Of a stretch of 32,859 bases of DNA, positions 7,201-32,063 are shown in pieces. This DNA comes from Bacteroidota bacterium (GTDB lineage Bacteria; Bacteroidota; Bacteroidia; Flavobacteriales_D; Sanyastnellaceae), in NCBI GenBank assembly GCA_027619225.1, contig JAQCFW010000021.1:1-32859 (forward strand), read 5' to 3'. The notes under the pieces were generated by a model, which was not told the DNA's origin, made no database searches, and saw only the letters and a program-made list of their open reading frames with translations. A program made the position numbers and the translations under genes. The first letter of the stretch is position 1. The number at the start of each line of letters is the position of its first letter.

Positions 7201-9180
7201 ATGAATTTTAGCATTGGATGTGATCACGCAGGACCGGCATATAAAAGCACAATAATAGAACACCTCAAAGAACGTGGTTTTTCAGTAAAGAATTGCGGAA
7301 CGGACAGTACAGAGAGTGTAGATTACCCAGATTTTGCTCATGCTGTTGCAAATGACGTGTCTTTAAAAGATTCAGAACTTGGAATTTTAATATGCGGATC
7401 AGCTAACGGGGTTGCTATGACAGCAAATAAACACAGTGAAGTTAGAGCTGCGATAGCCTGGACTCCAGAAATTGCGCATCTTGCAAAAACACACAACGAC
7501 GCAAACGTAATTTGTATTCCCGCAAGGTTTGTAAGCGAACAAGAGGCGGTTGATATCGTAGATGCATTTCTCGAGTCTAAATTCGAAGGAGGGCGACACG
7601 CAACACGGGTTGGTAAAATTGCATGCGGGCTTTTAACCCTGCTTCTTTGTGTATCATCCGCGTTTTCATCCCTATCCCAAACCTCTGTTGATCAATATGA
7701 ATATGGTCAGATGATGGACTCTACGAAGCTAAGAGCCCATTTAAGTATAATTGCATCTGATGAATTTGAAGGAAGAGAAACAGGAACAAGGGGTGCTGAA
7801 TTAACAGCACTTTATCTTGAAGACTACTATTCTAAACTTGGATTTGAGCCCTATGATGGCAAGTCATACACCCAAGACGTGCCAATGCTTAATTCTCAAA
7901 TCCAAGGAGGGGTAATGAACGTTGCTGGGCAGGAATTAAATATAGTTGATGGTTTTTTACTCTATCCAGGAATAAATGAAACATCAATGAAAGACATCCC
8001 CATGGTTTTTGCGGGTTATGGAATATCAAACAACAACACTTATGATGACTACGCAAAGATTGATGTAAAAGGGAAGTGTGTTGTGGTTTTACAGGGAGAT
8101 GTTAGAAACCCCGATTTAAAAGAAGCAAACAGCTCTACTTCAAAAAGAGAAAAAGCTGAATCTCTTGGCGCTGCGGCCTTTATAATTGTAATGCCCAACT
8201 CCGATTACAACACCTTTAAAGGAAGGATGAAGTTTTATATGATGCGTAAATCAACAATCTTAAACAGAACAAAGGAAGGTGAGGGCGCCAGCATACCCAC
8301 TTTTTTCGTTGGAGAGGATGCTGCGGATGTTTGGTTTGAGGCCTCTAAAAAAATGAAAAAAATAGTAAAAATCAAAAAGAAAGGTGAGAAAAAAGGGGTG
8401 GTGGCAACGGGTGGTTTACCCTGCACCTTCAACTATAATTTAGACATAAACAGAACAGAGTTTAATGGAAAAAACGTCCTTGCGTACCTTCCAGGTACAG
8501 ATAAAGATTTAAAGGATGAGGTTGTTGTAATAACGTCTCATTACGACCACATAGGAATTGTTGACGGGGAGATTAACAATGGCGCAGATGATGACGGATC
8601 GGGCACCGTAACTGTAATGGAGCTTGCTAGAGTTTACATGAACGCCTCTAAAAACGGTGACGGACCCAGAAGGAGTGTTTTATTTATGAACGTGGTGGGT
8701 GAAGAAAAAGGATTGCTTGGATCGGAGTGGTATTCAGATCACCCAATTTTCCCACTTGAAAACACGGTTGCAAATCTGAATATTGATATGATAGGCAGGG
8801 TTGATGAGGCCCACTCAGGGGATGAAAACTACATCTATTTAATAGGTTCAGATAAACTTAGCTCCGAGCTCCATGAGATTTCAGAAACTGCGAACGCATC
8901 GTTTACGAACATTACGCTTGATTACACATTCAACGCCCCAGACGACCCCAACAGATTTTACTACCGCTCAGATCACTACAACTTTGCAAAGCACAACATT
9001 CCTGTAATTTTTTACTTCAGCGGTGTTCACGAAGACTACCACGCTCCTGGAGATGATGTAGAAAAGATCATGTTCACGAAGATGACAAATGTAGGTCGCC
9101 TGGCTTTCCATACAGCTTGGGAATTGCTTAACAGGGATGAAAAAATCGTTGTAGACAAGGTGAACGATTTCAAGGACTAA
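7201..9180 (+). CDS. Fusion: ribose-5-phosphate isomerase B - hydrophobic segment - M28 metallopeptidase
   Basis: One 659-residue frame encodes two enzymes. Residues 1-140 form a complete RpiB: IGCDHAG, VDYPDFA, catalytic-Cys loop ILICGSANGVAMTANK and the terminal GGRHATRVGKI. RpiB interconverts ribulose- and ribose-5-phosphate in the cytosol. A hydrophobic stretch (about 141-155, CGLLTLLLCVSSAF) follows, looking like the signal peptide of a secreted peptidase. The rest is an M28 aminopeptidase: DEFEGRETGT, a PA-like insert (AGYGISNNNTYDDY) and metal ligands His447/Asp449 region (SHYDH), Asp464 region (GADDDG), Glu501/502 (GEEKG), Asp529 (IDMIGR) and His614 (DYHAPGD). I see no in-frame ATG, GTG or TTG between the RpiB end and the hydrophobic stretch. 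The start at 7201 matches other RpiB N-termini, whereas 7162 adds 13 unrelated residues. Its stop interleaves with that of the convergent gene (shared CTAA). Confidence 0.9.
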   Translation: MNFSIGCDHAGPAYKSTIIEHLKERGFSVKNCGTDSTESVDYPDFAHAVANDVSLKDSELGILICGSANGVAMTANKHSEVRAAIAWTPEIAHLAKTHNDANVICIPARFVSEQEAVDIVDAFLESKFEGGRHATRVGKIACGLLTLLLCVSSAFSSLSQTSVDQYEYGQMMDSTKLRAHLSIIASDEFEGRETGTRGAELTALYLEDYYSKLGFEPYDGKSYTQDVPMLNSQIQGGVMNVAGQELNIVDGFLLYPGINETSMKDIPMVFAGYGISNNNTYDDYAKIDVKGKCVVVLQGDVRNPDLKEANSSTSKREKAESLGAAAFIIVMPNSDYNTFKGRMKFYMMRKSTILNRTKEGEGASIPTFFVGEDAADVWFEASKKMKKIVKIKKKGEKKGVVATGGLPCTFNYNLDINRTEFNGKNVLAYLPGTDKDLKDEVVVITSHYDHIGIVDGEINNGADDDGSGTVTVMELARVYMNASKNGDGPRRSVLFMNVVGEEKGLLGSEWYSDHPIFPLENTVANLNIDMIGRVDEAHSGDENYIYLIGSDKLSSELHEISETANASFTNITLDYTFNAPDDPNRFYYRSDHYNFAKHNIPVIFYFSGVHEDYHAPGDDVEKIMFTKMTNVGRLAFHTAWELLNRDEKIVVDKVNDFKD

Positions 9181-10355
9181 TCACTCAAAAAGCCCTCAAT
9201 AGTTTCTCTAAAAAAAACCACCTCCTCTTCGTACGCAGCCCCTGTTGCTGGCCCGCTAAATCCTGAGTGGACAATTGGATCACCTTCGATTGGGATAAAT
9301 GCTGTTGTGGGAAAGGACCTAATCCCTCCAAAAAAAGCAAGGCATGAATCAGCCTCACTCTTACTGGCATCTCCTCCATGTAATATTTCCCAAGAAATCC
9401 CCACGCTCTTTTTAAACTCAGCGATTCTTCTTAAAGCTTCTCCACCCTTAGACCTTTCGAAAGACATAGAAACAACGAGTATTTCAGGATAATCTATGGC
9501 CAGCTCCTTCAACAACCTCGCCTCGTCCATACAGTTGGGGCACCACGTACCCATAACATCCACCACAAGAAGTTTATATCCAGACTTTTTCAATCTTTCT
9601 CTAGACCAAACCTCAATATCTCCACCCGAGTTTACCCCCTCAAACACCACCTTCTCACCCCTACCCCACTCCTGCTTAGAGCTCCATTTAACCTTTTCAT
9701 TTTCTGCCCTCACCCCACTCCACGAAGTGCTGTAATGAATTCCGCTCTTAAACACCCCATCTGTGATTGAATCTCCCCTGATTACACCTTCAAAATAAAA
9801 CAGGTGGACGCCGTCGAAATTTTGAAGTTTAAACTCATTCGTTGTGGTATCTATTTTCCCAGCCTGATATCTATAATCTCCTGTTGATGTCATAAAAGTT
9901 GCCCAGGCGGAATCACCTCTTTGTGTGAGTTTAAACTTTCCTAACGAGGTATCCCAAACGGAGTGAGTTGGCTCACCCATAACAGGAACAGGTTTTTCCA
10001 GAGGGCTCACCTCAAGCTTAACCCGATAATCGTTAGTTCTTAACGAATCCACCCACACGCCATCCCAAACTCCCCCACTCCACTCGCCCGTCCACGATCC
10101 ACCAAAAACAGGTACAGAATAACAACCCTCACCCTGAGATTTCACAAAGATTTCCTCCTCTCCATTTTTAACAACAAGACCCCCATCTATTTTCTCTGTA
10201 AGCACCGTTACGCTTGTTGAATCATCAAGCGTAAATACGGCGGAATAAAAAAGGTGCTCAACCGATTTGTTTTGACCAGTTGAGCACCCAAAGAACATTA
10301 CAGCAGCGATAAATAAAGCTGCGAAAACCGAGAGACCTCCCCTCCGACCCAGCAT
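9177..10355 (-). CDS. TlpA-like thioredoxin-fold lipoprotein
   Basis: A 392-residue exported protein. The N-terminus is a lipoprotein signal (MLGRRGG, hydrophobic core, lipobox VMFFGC), so it is probably lipid-anchored in the envelope. Residues about 30-240 are a beta-rich N-terminal region I do not recognise. About 245-390 form a thioredoxin fold with the redox motif WCPNC (Cys272 and Cys275) and the cis-proline region SFPTTAF. TlpA/ResA-type proteins reduce or exchange periplasmic disulfides. The start at 10355 is supported by the lipobox and by TGATG overlap with the upstream dehydrogenase stop. The open frame extends upstream to 10442 but would bury the signal sequence. Confidence 0.88.
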   Translation of the reverse strand: MLGRRGGLSVFAALFIAAVMFFGCSTGQNKSVEHLFYSAVFTLDDSTSVTVLTEKIDGGLVVKNGEEEIFVKSQGEGCYSVPVFGGSWTGEWSGGVWDGVWVDSLRTNDYRVKLEVSPLEKPVPVMGEPTHSVWDTSLGKFKLTQRGDSAWATFMTSTGDYRYQAGKIDTTTNEFKLQNFDGVHLFYFEGVIRGDSITDGVFKSGIHYSTSWSGVRAENEKVKWSSKQEWGRGEKVVFEGVNSGGDIEVWSRERLKKSGYKLLVVDVMGTWCPNCMDEARLLKELAIDYPEILVVSMSFERSKGGEALRRIAEFKKSVGISWEILHGGDASKSEADSCLAFFGGIRSFPTTAFIPIEGDPIVHSGFSGPATGAAYEEEVVFFRETIEGFLSD

Positions 10356-11884
10356 CAAAGGTCGAATTTTATTCCCTGAGCTAAAGGCAGATCTTCTCCG
10401 TAGTTGATGGTGTTGGTTTGGCGTCTCATGTAGGCCTTCCAAGCATCAGAACCACTCTCACGACCACCACCAGTTTCTTTCTCTCCACCGAAGGCTCCTC
10501 CGATTTCAGCTCCAGAAGTTCCGATATTCACGTTGGCAATTCCACAATCAGATCCGGCTGCAGATAAAAACAACTCAGCTTCACGGAGGTTGTTCGTCAT
10601 GATGGCAGAAGACAGACCCTGAACCACTCCGTTTTGCATCGCAATAGCTTCTTCAACAGTTTCGTATTTCATAATGTAAAGAATTGGCGCGAAAGTCTCG
10701 TGCTGAACGATTTGCATTTCGTTATTTACCTCAGCAATAGCGGGTCTAACATAACAACCACTTTCATAACCCTCTCCCTCAAGAACTCCGCCAGGAACAA
10801 GCACTGTTCCACCCTGCTCCTCAACAGCCTTAAGCGCTGCCAAGTATCCTTCAACAGCAAGCGTATCGATAAGCGGACCTACGTGATTGTTTTCATCGAG
10901 TGGATCTCCGATGCGAACTTGTTTGTAGGCTTGCGTAAGTTGATCTTTTACCTTTTCGTAAATACTAGAATGAACGATAACCCTTCTCGTGCTTGTGCAA
11001 CGCTGTCCACAAGTACCCACTGCTCCAAACACAGCAGCCGGAACGACAACCTTTAGATCAGCATCAGGCGTGATGATAAGAGCGTTGTTTCCACCCAACT
11101 CTAACAACGAGCGGCCCAAACGAGCGGCAACGGCCTGCGCAACAATTTTACCCATACGCGTAGATCCTGTAGCGCTAATAAGCGGAACACGCTTGTCACG
11201 GCTTAACATCTCACCTACTTTATAATCTCCATTTACCACACAAGAGATGCCTTCAGGGACACCGTTGGCTTCAGCCACCTCAACCCAAATATTTTGGCAA
11301 GCAACAGCACAAAGCGGCGCTTTCTCAGAAGGCTTCCAAACACAAACGTCACCCGACACCCACGCAAGCGCAGTATTCCAACACCAGACAGCCACGGGAA
11401 AGTTAAAGGCAGAAATAATTCCAACAATTCCCAGCGGGTGGTATTGCTCGTACATACGGTGATTTCGGCGCTCTGAGTGCATTGTGAGACCGTAAAGCAT
11501 TCGACTTTGGCCCAATGCAAAATCGCAAATATCAATCATCTCTTGAACCTCACCGAGTCCCTCCTGATAACTCTTCCCCATTTCATAGGAAACAAGCGCA
11601 CCCAATGATTTCTTTTTTTCGCGAAGAGCATCACCAAATTGGCGAACCACCTCACCACGCTCTGGTGCACTCCATTTTCCCCACTCGACAAAAGCCTTGC
11701 TTGCTGCATCCATAACAAGCTCATAATCGTCTGATGTAGCTGTAGTTACGCGCGCAATCACTTTTCCGTCAGTCGGTGAAATAGAGTCAATATGTGGGCC
11801 CGAACCTAATGTGCGGCCCCCGATCATAACACCTGCGTTTGTGTCTTTAATACCTAAATCGGTAAGAACTTTTTGAATATCCAT
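10355..11884 (-). CDS. ALDH7-type aldehyde dehydrogenase (probable aminoadipate-semialdehyde dehydrogenase)
   Basis: A 509-residue NAD(P)-dependent aldehyde dehydrogenase of normal family length. It shows the cofactor region (SAFNFPVAVWCWN, WKPSEKAPL, ATGSTRMG), the glutamate motif LELGGNNA and the catalytic cysteine, Cys296, in GTCGQRCTSTRR. The Asn pair in ELGGNNA and the overall sequence are typical of the ALDH7A1/AmaB group, which oxidises aminoadipate semialdehyde in lysine catabolism. The substrate here is inferred from family alone. The following lipoprotein gene overlaps its stop by one base (TGATG), so the two are probably translationally coupled although their functions are not obviously linked. 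Confidence 0.93.
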   Translation of the reverse strand: MDIQKVLTDLGIKDTNAGVMIGGRTLGSGPHIDSISPTDGKVIARVTTATSDDYELVMDAASKAFVEWGKWSAPERGEVVRQFGDALREKKKSLGALVSYEMGKSYQEGLGEVQEMIDICDFALGQSRMLYGLTMHSERRNHRMYEQYHPLGIVGIISAFNFPVAVWCWNTALAWVSGDVCVWKPSEKAPLCAVACQNIWVEVAEANGVPEGISCVVNGDYKVGEMLSRDKRVPLISATGSTRMGKIVAQAVAARLGRSLLELGGNNALIITPDADLKVVVPAAVFGAVGTCGQRCTSTRRVIVHSSIYEKVKDQLTQAYKQVRIGDPLDENNHVGPLIDTLAVEGYLAALKAVEEQGGTVLVPGGVLEGEGYESGCYVRPAIAEVNNEMQIVQHETFAPILYIMKYETVEEAIAMQNGVVQGLSSAIMTNNLREAELFLSAAGSDCGIANVNIGTSGAEIGGAFGGEKETGGGRESGSDAWKAYMRRQTNTINYGEDLPLAQGIKFDL

Positions 11885-30443: not shown

Positions 30444-30525
30444 GCCCGAATGGCGGAACTGGTAGACGCGCACGACTCAAACTCGTGTTCCGCAAGGAGT
30501 GTGGGTTCGATTCCCACTTCGGGTA
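30444..30525 (+). tRNA. tRNA-Leu(CAA)
   Basis: Complete cloverleaf: acceptor GCCCGAA pairs with TTCGGGT, D arm GCGG-AACTGGTAGAC-GCGC type, anticodon arm CACGA-CTCAAAC-TCGTG with anticodon CAA, long class II variable arm (TTCCGCAAGGAG), T arm GTGGG-TTCGATT-CCCAC, discriminator A. CCA is not encoded (ACAT follows). It sits at the boundary of the right-hand element, and its 3' part overlaps the recombinase coding sequence on the other strand by 49 bases. Confidence 0.97.
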
Positions 30526-32063
30526 CATAACGGGAGATAACCGAAAGGTTGTCTCTCGTTTTTGTTTTTAACGACCTCTAAAGCATTGATGCTGCGAGTA
30601 ATAAGCTCAAGTCCTCTGTTCAAGATTGGGGTTCGATAATTCTCTCCATCAAATACAAGTTTTTTGTTGAATATCGAACTCAGGAGTTTTTGCTTCGTGT
30701 TTACGGTTGCCTTCGCGAAGAACTCTCCAAGGTTTTTAAGTATGTGAATACCAAAGCTGATAAATTCTAAAGAATCTTTCTCATAGTCGTTCAATTGATT
30801 TTTGTCTATGATGAGTTGACTTATCTTATTCTTTAAGTCTGCGTTCTTTGAATTAAACATATCATTTGTGATAGCACCCTCTAATAATTTATCTAACAGC
30901 ACTTCTTTTTTGTCTTCGAGTTTTTTGATGTTTATATCGATTGATTTCATCATGGATTTATTGGACTTATCTGATGTGTCAAATTTATCTTTGAGCATTA
31001 ACTCAAAGAGGTGACACACGTCTTTATTTGGACTATAATCCGCCAACAAGTCTTCAACGGATGTATGTGCCAAATCAGCTCTATAACGCTCTTTACAGCC
31101 GTTTTTAGAGTTTCCGTGATAGTAGTAATGCTTCTTACCAGTTTTGCTCGTAGATCCGCTGCCAGTGAGGTTTTCCCCACAACAATTACATGAGAGAAAA
31201 CCTCTCAATGGTAATGCGTTATTTTGTTTATTTGGTTTGTGTTTGATGCGTTTACGATTGCCAAGTTCTACCTGAACTTTTTCATATGTTTCAACACTCA
31301 CAAGAGGTTCATGAAGTGCAGTAACTATTTGCTCTGGCTCATTTTTGTATGCGCTTACACGAATTCTACCTGAGTACACAATTTGGTTAAGTATTCGGCT
31401 TATGTTGCTGCTACTCAAATTTAGAGGCTTGAATTTCGGTAGTTTACGAATTTGACTTTGAGAGTAGATCCCTAAAGCAAAATCATTAAATAGTTCTGTT
31501 ATCAATCCTGCGATTTCTTTGTCCGGTTTCATCAGAACCTTACCGCTTTCATCACGCCCCTTCACATACCCCTTAGGTTGGCTTAAAACCCATCTACCAT
31601 CTTTCATATTGCTTCTCGTCCCTTCAATAGTTCTTGAGCTTCTGATGCGGTTATCTACCTCTGGCAACCCCATATGAATCAAAGACATGATATGCTGATT
31701 TGGGTCGTCGTGATTAACCCATTGAGTTGAGCAATTCACTTCCACACCCATACCATTCAATTGATGTATCATATTTAATCCAAGTCTCGAATTTCGCGAA
31801 AACCTATCCCATTTATAGATTAATAATAGGTTGATTTTATTTTTTCTCTCAGCAACATATTTAAGCAGATTACTAAATCCAGGTCTGCCAAAATCCTTGG
31901 CAGAATAATCATCATCAAAATCTTCAATTATATCAATACAGTTCTTTTTACAAAACTCACTAAGCATTTCTTCTTGTGTTGACAGACTGTTGCCACGATC
32001 TTTCTGTTCACTTGTACTAACCCTTCGATATAGCACAGCTCTTTTGCCCGATAAATTATTCAT
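30477..32063 (-). CDS. Large serine recombinase (site-specific integrase)
   Basis: A 528-residue recombinase. The N-terminal resolvase/invertase domain has the nucleophile Ser16 in YRRVSTSEQ and the arginine-bearing IYKWDRFSRN. The recombinase DNA-binding domain follows (about 160-270, QPKGYVKGRDESGK). A zinc ribbon (FLSCNCCGENLTGSG to NGCKERY, about 290-330) and a coiled-coil stretch (about 365-430) complete a large serine integrase. The start is ATG at 32063. The last roughly 25 residues (PLCTRSGNRTHTPCGTRV) are encoded by the reverse complement of a terminator and tRNA-Leu, and the TGA stop lies in the tRNA anticodon loop. This tail is therefore probably a product of the integration site rather than a conserved domain. 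Confidence 0.92.
   Translation of the reverse strand: MNNLSGKRAVLYRRVSTSEQKDRGNSLSTQEEMLSEFCKKNCIDIIEDFDDDYSAKDFGRPGFSNLLKYVAERKNKINLLLIYKWDRFSRNSRLGLNMIHQLNGMGVEVNCSTQWVNHDDPNQHIMSLIHMGLPEVDNRIRSSRTIEGTRSNMKDGRWVLSQPKGYVKGRDESGKVLMKPDKEIAGLITELFNDFALGIYSQSQIRKLPKFKPLNLSSSNISRILNQIVYSGRIRVSAYKNEPEQIVTALHEPLVSVETYEKVQVELGNRKRIKHKPNKQNNALPLRGFLSCNCCGENLTGSGSTSKTGKKHYYYHGNSKNGCKERYRADLAHTSVEDLLADYSPNKDVCHLFELMLKDKFDTSDKSNKSMMKSIDINIKKLEDKKEVLLDKLLEGAITNDMFNSKNADLKNKISQLIIDKNQLNDYEKDSLEFISFGIHILKNLGEFFAKATVNTKQKLLSSIFNKKLVFDGENYRTPILNRGLELITRSINALEVVKNKNERQPFGYLPLCTRSGNRTHTPCGTRV
30531..30569 (+). terminator. Intrinsic terminator behind tRNA-Leu
   Basis: CGGGAGATAACC, loop GAAA, GGTTGTCTCTCG forms a 12-bp stem (two G-T pairs) followed by TTTTTGTTTTT. 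It begins five bases after the tRNA. It lies within the 3' coding end of the convergent recombinase, so it either came with the host tRNA or belongs to the element's att region. Confidence 0.85.

Follow-up and report, generated by a model that had tools for sequence, protein, structure and literature searches.

A single bacterial gene that yields two proteins through an internal signal sequence is known from FbcH of Bradyrhizobium japonicum, where cytochrome b and cytochrome c1 are made as one precursor that is split by signal peptidase (our literature search returned no paper on FbcH). The gene described here, which joins ribose-5-phosphate isomerase B (RpiB) to an M28 metallopeptidase, resembles FbcH in being one bacterial gene for two putative proteins with an internal signal between them. 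However, FbcH begins with an integral membrane protein that belongs to one complex with its second part, whereas RpiB-M28 begins with a soluble-type metabolic enzyme that has no known functional tie to the exported peptidase. GCPII/PSMA and the transferrin receptor are type II membrane proteins whose cytosolic tail is short and holds no enzyme. They share with RpiB-M28 a cytosolic N-terminus, a hydrophobic segment and an M28 fold with a PA insert, a likeness that draws on fold matches of a weak model and on their known topology, but they are human proteins and distant relatives only. FecR of E. coli is likewise a single-pass protein, with a cytoplasmic N-terminal fragment that arises by sequential processing and is made by RseP as the last step (PMC8144685); FecR is a transcription regulator, whereas the cytosolic part of RpiB-M28 is an enzyme whose release we infer. 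Other Bacteroidota carry a pair of separate rpiB and M28 genes, which is like the fusion in the kinds of genes and their order. In the family studied here, the separate M28 peptidase bears a signal peptide of its own, which ends with a small residue and Q in 40 of 41 loci. Unlike in the fusion, a stop closes the first gene of this pair and the second gene begins at its own start codon, and the RpiB lacks a hydrophobic extension.

By the window we mean the whole stretch of DNA that was analysed, 32,859 nucleotides long. A first-pass annotation had claimed that an RpiB runs here in frame through a signal-peptide-like hydrophobic stretch into an M28 peptidase with a PA-like insert. This claim is confirmed by one open reading frame of 659 amino acids that has Pfam matches to RpiB, PA and M28, all above their cut-offs, and by the hydropathy and charge counts at the joint. 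The features are as follows.

7201-9180, + strand: whole fused gene including the stop codon; single open reading frame, ATG at 7201, stop at 9178-9180, 659 aa.
7201-7620, + strand: RpiB domain, residues 1-140, with C-terminal GGRHATRVGKI (PF02502, NF004051).
7606-7620, + strand: R136-V-G-K-I, the end of RpiB, which doubles as basic n-region of the internal signal (invariant residues; RpiB ends of separate relatives).
7621-7677, + strand: hydrophobic and c-region of the putative internal signal, ACGLLTLLLCVSSAFSSLS, with zero charged residues (hydropathy and charge counts, 44 fused copies).
7675-7680, + strand: predicted signal peptidase site S159/Q160, with nearby alternatives possible ([AGST]Q in 44/44 fused copies).
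7711-7713, + strand: M171, the first in-frame ATG past the GGRH motif, too late for a peptidase with signal.
8020-8328, + strand: PA domain within the peptidase part, residues 274-376 (PF02225, 25.5 bits, cut-off 23.9).
8473-9111, + strand: M28 metallopeptidase catalytic domain, residues 425-637 (PF04389, 128.1 bits, cut-off 21.3).

The start of the gene was placed in the ORF list at a TTG (7162), but the fused relatives start at the M of MNxSIGCDHAG, and 7201 is therefore the likely start. The RpiB part matches LacAB_rpiB (PF02502) over residues 5-140 (178.6 bits, cut-off 24.7, whole-protein E = 8e-53) and passes the NF004051 cut-off (170.3 vs 135). Both the RpiB and the PA-containing M28 metallopeptidase are complete. 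The TIGR01120 equivalog (cut-off 138.65) is narrowly missed by the whole protein (136.9) and passed by the RpiB domain alone (140.4). For the other half, the whole-protein E-values in Pfam are 4.6e-37 (Peptidase_M28) and 1.4e-5 (PA). In an alignment of 14 fused proteins, C65, H98, R132 and R136 of RpiB are invariant; we take the first two to be the catalytic Cys and His and the two arginines to bind phosphate. The numbering of the fused RpiB is offset by one from that of E. coli RpiB, such that H98 aligns with E. coli H99, and an E. coli RpiB H99N entry is present among the fold-search matches. The same alignment holds H447, D464, E501, E502, D529 and H614 of M28 invariant, which are presumably the zinc ligands and the catalytic Glu. 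Among solved structures, the best sequence matches of the M28 part are leucine aminopeptidases. The AlphaFold model (mean pLDDT 67.7) holds little information on the joint and serves as a fold check only; a fold search with this weak model returned an aminopeptidase first, then the transferrin receptor/GCPII group, with RpiB structures lower. Each half is an ordinary member of its family.

The same architecture in related genomes, which the annotation had proposed to look for, was surveyed in 60 genomes of the neighbourhood and then in 114 genomes of the family, and the joint was read in frame in 43 of the latter (44 copies). The fused genomes fall into six genera (9 in g1, 10 in g3, 19 in g5, 2 in g10, 1 in g14 and 2 in g11), the first five of which are fused in every genome where RpiB was found, while in g11 two genomes are fused. 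A full match is absent from nine genomes that belong to fused genera (5 g1, 3 g5, 1 g3). None of the nine has any RpiB match, and a partial match in one genome (G112) lies near a contig end; hence they look like assembly gaps, which fits better than re-splitting. Among 80 loci chosen for their match to the query, 10 are fused, 65 separate and 5 unclassified (L053, L062, L076, L089, L093). The motif used for this classing missed these five and L037, which proved fused on inspection. All ten fused loci come from metagenome-assembled genomes, of which eight are labelled Flavobacteriales, one Crocinitomicaceae and one 'bacterium'. The 80 loci and the 114 genomes share some records, and the two fusion counts therefore overlap. 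A second fused copy in G002 (L150, G002:C23:5500-8600) groups with g5 in the tree and is probably a stray contig.

Beyond the family, no fusion with both parts in one open frame was found in 399 genomes of the order (family included), and none among 395 genomes of the phylum, at limits of 1e-130 and 1e-110, strict enough that a distant fusion could have escaped. Of 691 matching plasmid records none held 80% of the query in one place, and all 22 matches on viral contigs were limited to the RpiB part. No paper on an RpiB-M28 fusion was found in the open-licence literature, a scope from which the absence of any paper cannot be concluded.

Since neighbouring genera have separate genes, one might suspect a sequencing or assembly error that deleted a stop codon or shifted the frame. 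This was rejected, being refuted for practical purposes by the same joint in 43 of the 114 family genomes, by ten fused loci of several accession prefixes and by purifying selection, and the RpiB-free genomes of the fused genera fit gaps; the chance of such an error is negligible. The annotation had also held that the fusion would be refuted if its close relatives had the two genes apart, with a start codon between them. Such genes do occur in other genera of the family, but as a refutation they fail, because the window's genus is fused throughout wherever RpiB was found, as are four other genera. The separate neighbouring genes show instead the origin of the fusion.

Both domains are under purifying selection, with a dN/dS pooled over 17 close pairs of 0.059 for RpiB and 0.061 for M28. 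Over the same pairs the ratio is 0.22 for the 17 codons after KI and 0.19 for the remaining linker. Some sequences enter more than one pair, the linker offers only short stretches, and not every single value was computable. The fusion is real and old.

In the other genera of the family, all 41 loci classed as separate for the tree carry rpiB and M28 as neighbouring genes, and in 22 of these the peptidase ATG lies over the rpiB stop as an ATGA overlap. In other families of the order (G037-G059), the place table gives the two matches side by side in at least 12 of 23 genomes. An rpiB gene also adjoins an M28 peptidase gene in records of Sphingobacteriaceae, Chitinophagaceae and Saprospiraceae (L042-L111, loci selected by query match). 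In three loci, L016 (G019), L163 (G077) and L164 (G086), rpiB and M28 are separate genes that share one reading frame, and the matched stretch holds a single stop codon. As suggested by these relatives, the ancestral state would be two neighbouring genes, often with the ATGA overlap, and a small indel at their boundary may have brought both into one frame.

A quick tree of RpiB and M28 with the joint left out (90 rows, 613 columns) needs two changes between the fused and separate states; L044 was dropped from it, and the count becomes three if L171, which has no RpiB on its stretch, is given a state of its own. A single origin of the fusion was rejected, because uniting all 44 copies in one clade makes the best tree 50 log units worse (AU p = 0.0008), in a test where G026 has a long branch and the group was defined after seeing the tree. 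One gain followed by one re-split in g11 would also amount to two changes. However, all 12 separate g11 loci with both genes keep the ATGA overlap, nine of them as TCA-TGA like g13, g2 and g6, and two independent fusions are therefore favoured as more likely than one gain and an exact re-split.

It is quite possible that the fusion originated as a neutral accident without benefit, tolerated because Sec can handle a signal inside a chain and signal peptidase brings back two separate products, and we would put this somewhat below an even chance. The joint evolves faster than either domain, and such a fusion could result from a single simple indel where two genes overlap, but an accident sits less well with a fusion that seems to have arisen twice and that shows no re-splitting in five fused genera. 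This estimate concerns why the fusion exists; it is compatible with the explanation preferred below and is not to be added to the odds of the other readings.

The joint itself has the look of an export signal. In many of the family's separate RpiB proteins the C-terminus is RVxKIACS, followed by the stop, and most fused proteins run from RVxKIAC directly into the hydrophobic region of the peptidase; hence the basic tail of RpiB stands in for the charged start of the peptidase. The alignment shows that this tail has replaced the start and n-region of the peptidase signal peptide. In the window protein, the GGRHATRVGK end of RpiB leads directly into IACGLLTLLLCVSSAFSSLSQ, and R132, H133, R136, V137, K139 and I140 are invariant in the 14 aligned fused proteins. 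The hydrophobic core is kept in all 44 copies, 42 of which are free of charge over the 15 positions that follow KI, and the median hydropathy of the best 10 residues is 2.68 in the 44 fused copies vs 2.73 in 41 separate signal peptides. The charge before the segment is 2.5 in the fused proteins vs 1 in the separate ones, and the residue that precedes Q lies 18 vs 16 residues from the last basic one. A small residue followed by Q ([AGST]Q) occurs in 44/44 fused and 40/41 separate copies, as counted without a random control. When A/G/S/C/T is allowed at -1 and A/G/S/C/T/V/I/L at -3, 35 of the 44 fused copies pass before the first Q; by eye, eight of the nine failing copies have a later fitting Q, and L142 has none. 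No lipoprotein lipobox was seen by eye. Judged by hydropathy, charge and motif, the internal segment appears to have the n-, h- and c-regions of a cleavable signal.

The annotation had left the segment as either an anchor or a cleavage signal. The small residue and Q kept in every fused copy, about 18 residues past the last basic residue much as in the separate relatives, lean toward a cleavable signal peptide rather than a permanent anchor. In the anchored alternative, the chain would stay uncut as a type II membrane protein whose RpiB is cytosolic and whose M28 is fixed on the periplasmic side, and hence with active sites on either side of the membrane. A cytosolic N-terminal domain followed by a single hydrophobic segment is the usual type II shape, the fold matches of the weak model include the type II proteins GCPII/PSMA and the transferrin receptor, and the spacing two residues longer than in the separate relatives would allow an uncleaved anchor. 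Since the hydrophobic core is short and an anchor has no need of the conserved small residue-Q (the count again without random control), we consider this unlikely, though the most that can be said against it is perhaps four to one.

A different possibility is that the fusion is accompanied by a secreted peptidase started separately near the end of RpiB, from GTG, ATG, TTG or a rare ATT or ATA. Coupled starting would be the older state, given the ATGA overlap in 22 of the 41 separate family loci, and a GTG falls at the V of RVxKI in 19 of 44 fused copies. Some ATG, GTG or TTG occurs within the first 17 codons from GGRH in 35 of the 44 copies, where a separately started peptidase is thus possible. 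However, no stop codon is left at this place of the fused gene from which ribosomes might re-initiate, and a conserved internal start codon was rejected, because the positions vary and nine copies, the window included, have none of the three codons in this interval. In the window there is none in frame between the GGRH motif and M171, which follows the hydrophobic segment, so the earlier claim that no ATG, GTG or TTG separates the two parts in frame holds. One open frame without internal stop or usable start was found in the window and in eight other copies of the 44. Taken together, a second, internally started product seems improbable.

Ribose-5-phosphate isomerase works on sugar phosphates of the cytosol. 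The window genome is 97.3% complete, which leaves room for a missed gene. Its sole RpiB match is the fused one, and no match to RpiA was found in the ten genomes searched (nine fused, one separate). Eight of the nine fused genomes have a single RpiB match, while G011 (6% contamination given) has a second, more distant one that is not joined to M28. As the sole ribose-5-phosphate isomerase found in the window genome, with a cytosolic substrate, the fused RpiB should stay in the cytosol and the segment should lie N-in/C-out; the same fact lends indirect support to isomerase activity of the RpiB part.

The preferred explanation, to which we assign a probability of roughly 0.6, is a natural fusion gene serving two compartments, formed from neighbouring genes, with an internal signal, release of the peptidase by signal peptidase, and RpiB tethered or later freed. 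RpiB would fold in the cytosol while leaving the ribosome; the signal would emerge next and be inserted N-in/C-out by the Sec system, with the peptidase translocated to the periplasm. Signal peptidase I could then cut between the small residue and the Q, which would set the peptidase free in the periplasm and leave RpiB at the inner membrane with a hydrophobic tail. Cutting of the chain in two is likely on this evidence. A site-2 protease might finally cut the tail inside the membrane and free RpiB, which is the least certain step. The window genome has matches to both an S26 signal peptidase and an M50 site-2 protease. In E. coli, RseP clears away the remnants of signal peptides, and the proteins it cuts are generally single-pass with N-in/C-out topology (PMC10470546). 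The cut fusion would resemble such an RseP substrate with RpiB as its cytosolic part.

A stronger version, which we hold only tentatively and regard as rather doubtful, is a cellular polyprotein in which an indispensable RpiB is made only together with export of the peptidase, and signal peptidase and site-2 protease yield cytosolic RpiB and periplasmic peptidase. If so, the cell would obtain a pentose-phosphate enzyme in a fixed one-to-one ratio with export, and RpiB would spend at least some of its life attached to the membrane.

The conserved fusion of a cytosolic with an exported enzyme is real and has probably evolved twice. A fusion between enzymes of different compartments is unexpected, and by the usual domain-fusion logic such joints point to a shared function. 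RpiB-M28 apparently arose from the lost boundary of neighbouring or overlapping genes, with the basic tail of an enzyme becoming part of an export signal, and it warns against inferring function from fusions. It also suggests that a signal peptide can still work when a folded cytosolic enzyme lies ahead of it, and offers a test case for internal signals, signal peptidase and site-2 protease in Bacteroidota.

Several other genes of the window were noted. The ORF adjoining the fusion (9177-10442, - strand) has a thioredoxin-like WCPNC motif by eye and no Pfam match; its TTG start overlaps an aldehyde dehydrogenase ORF, and the real start is therefore probably further in. A tyrosine integrase with arm-binding and SAM-like domains (1-1155, - strand) runs off the left end of the window. 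At the other end, a serine recombinase ORF (30477-32063, - strand) has Resolvase and Recombinase matches, with the zinc ribbon just below the cut-off. It ends within a tRNA-Leu (caa) gene on the opposite strand (30444-30526, + strand), and looks like a tRNA-integrated element.
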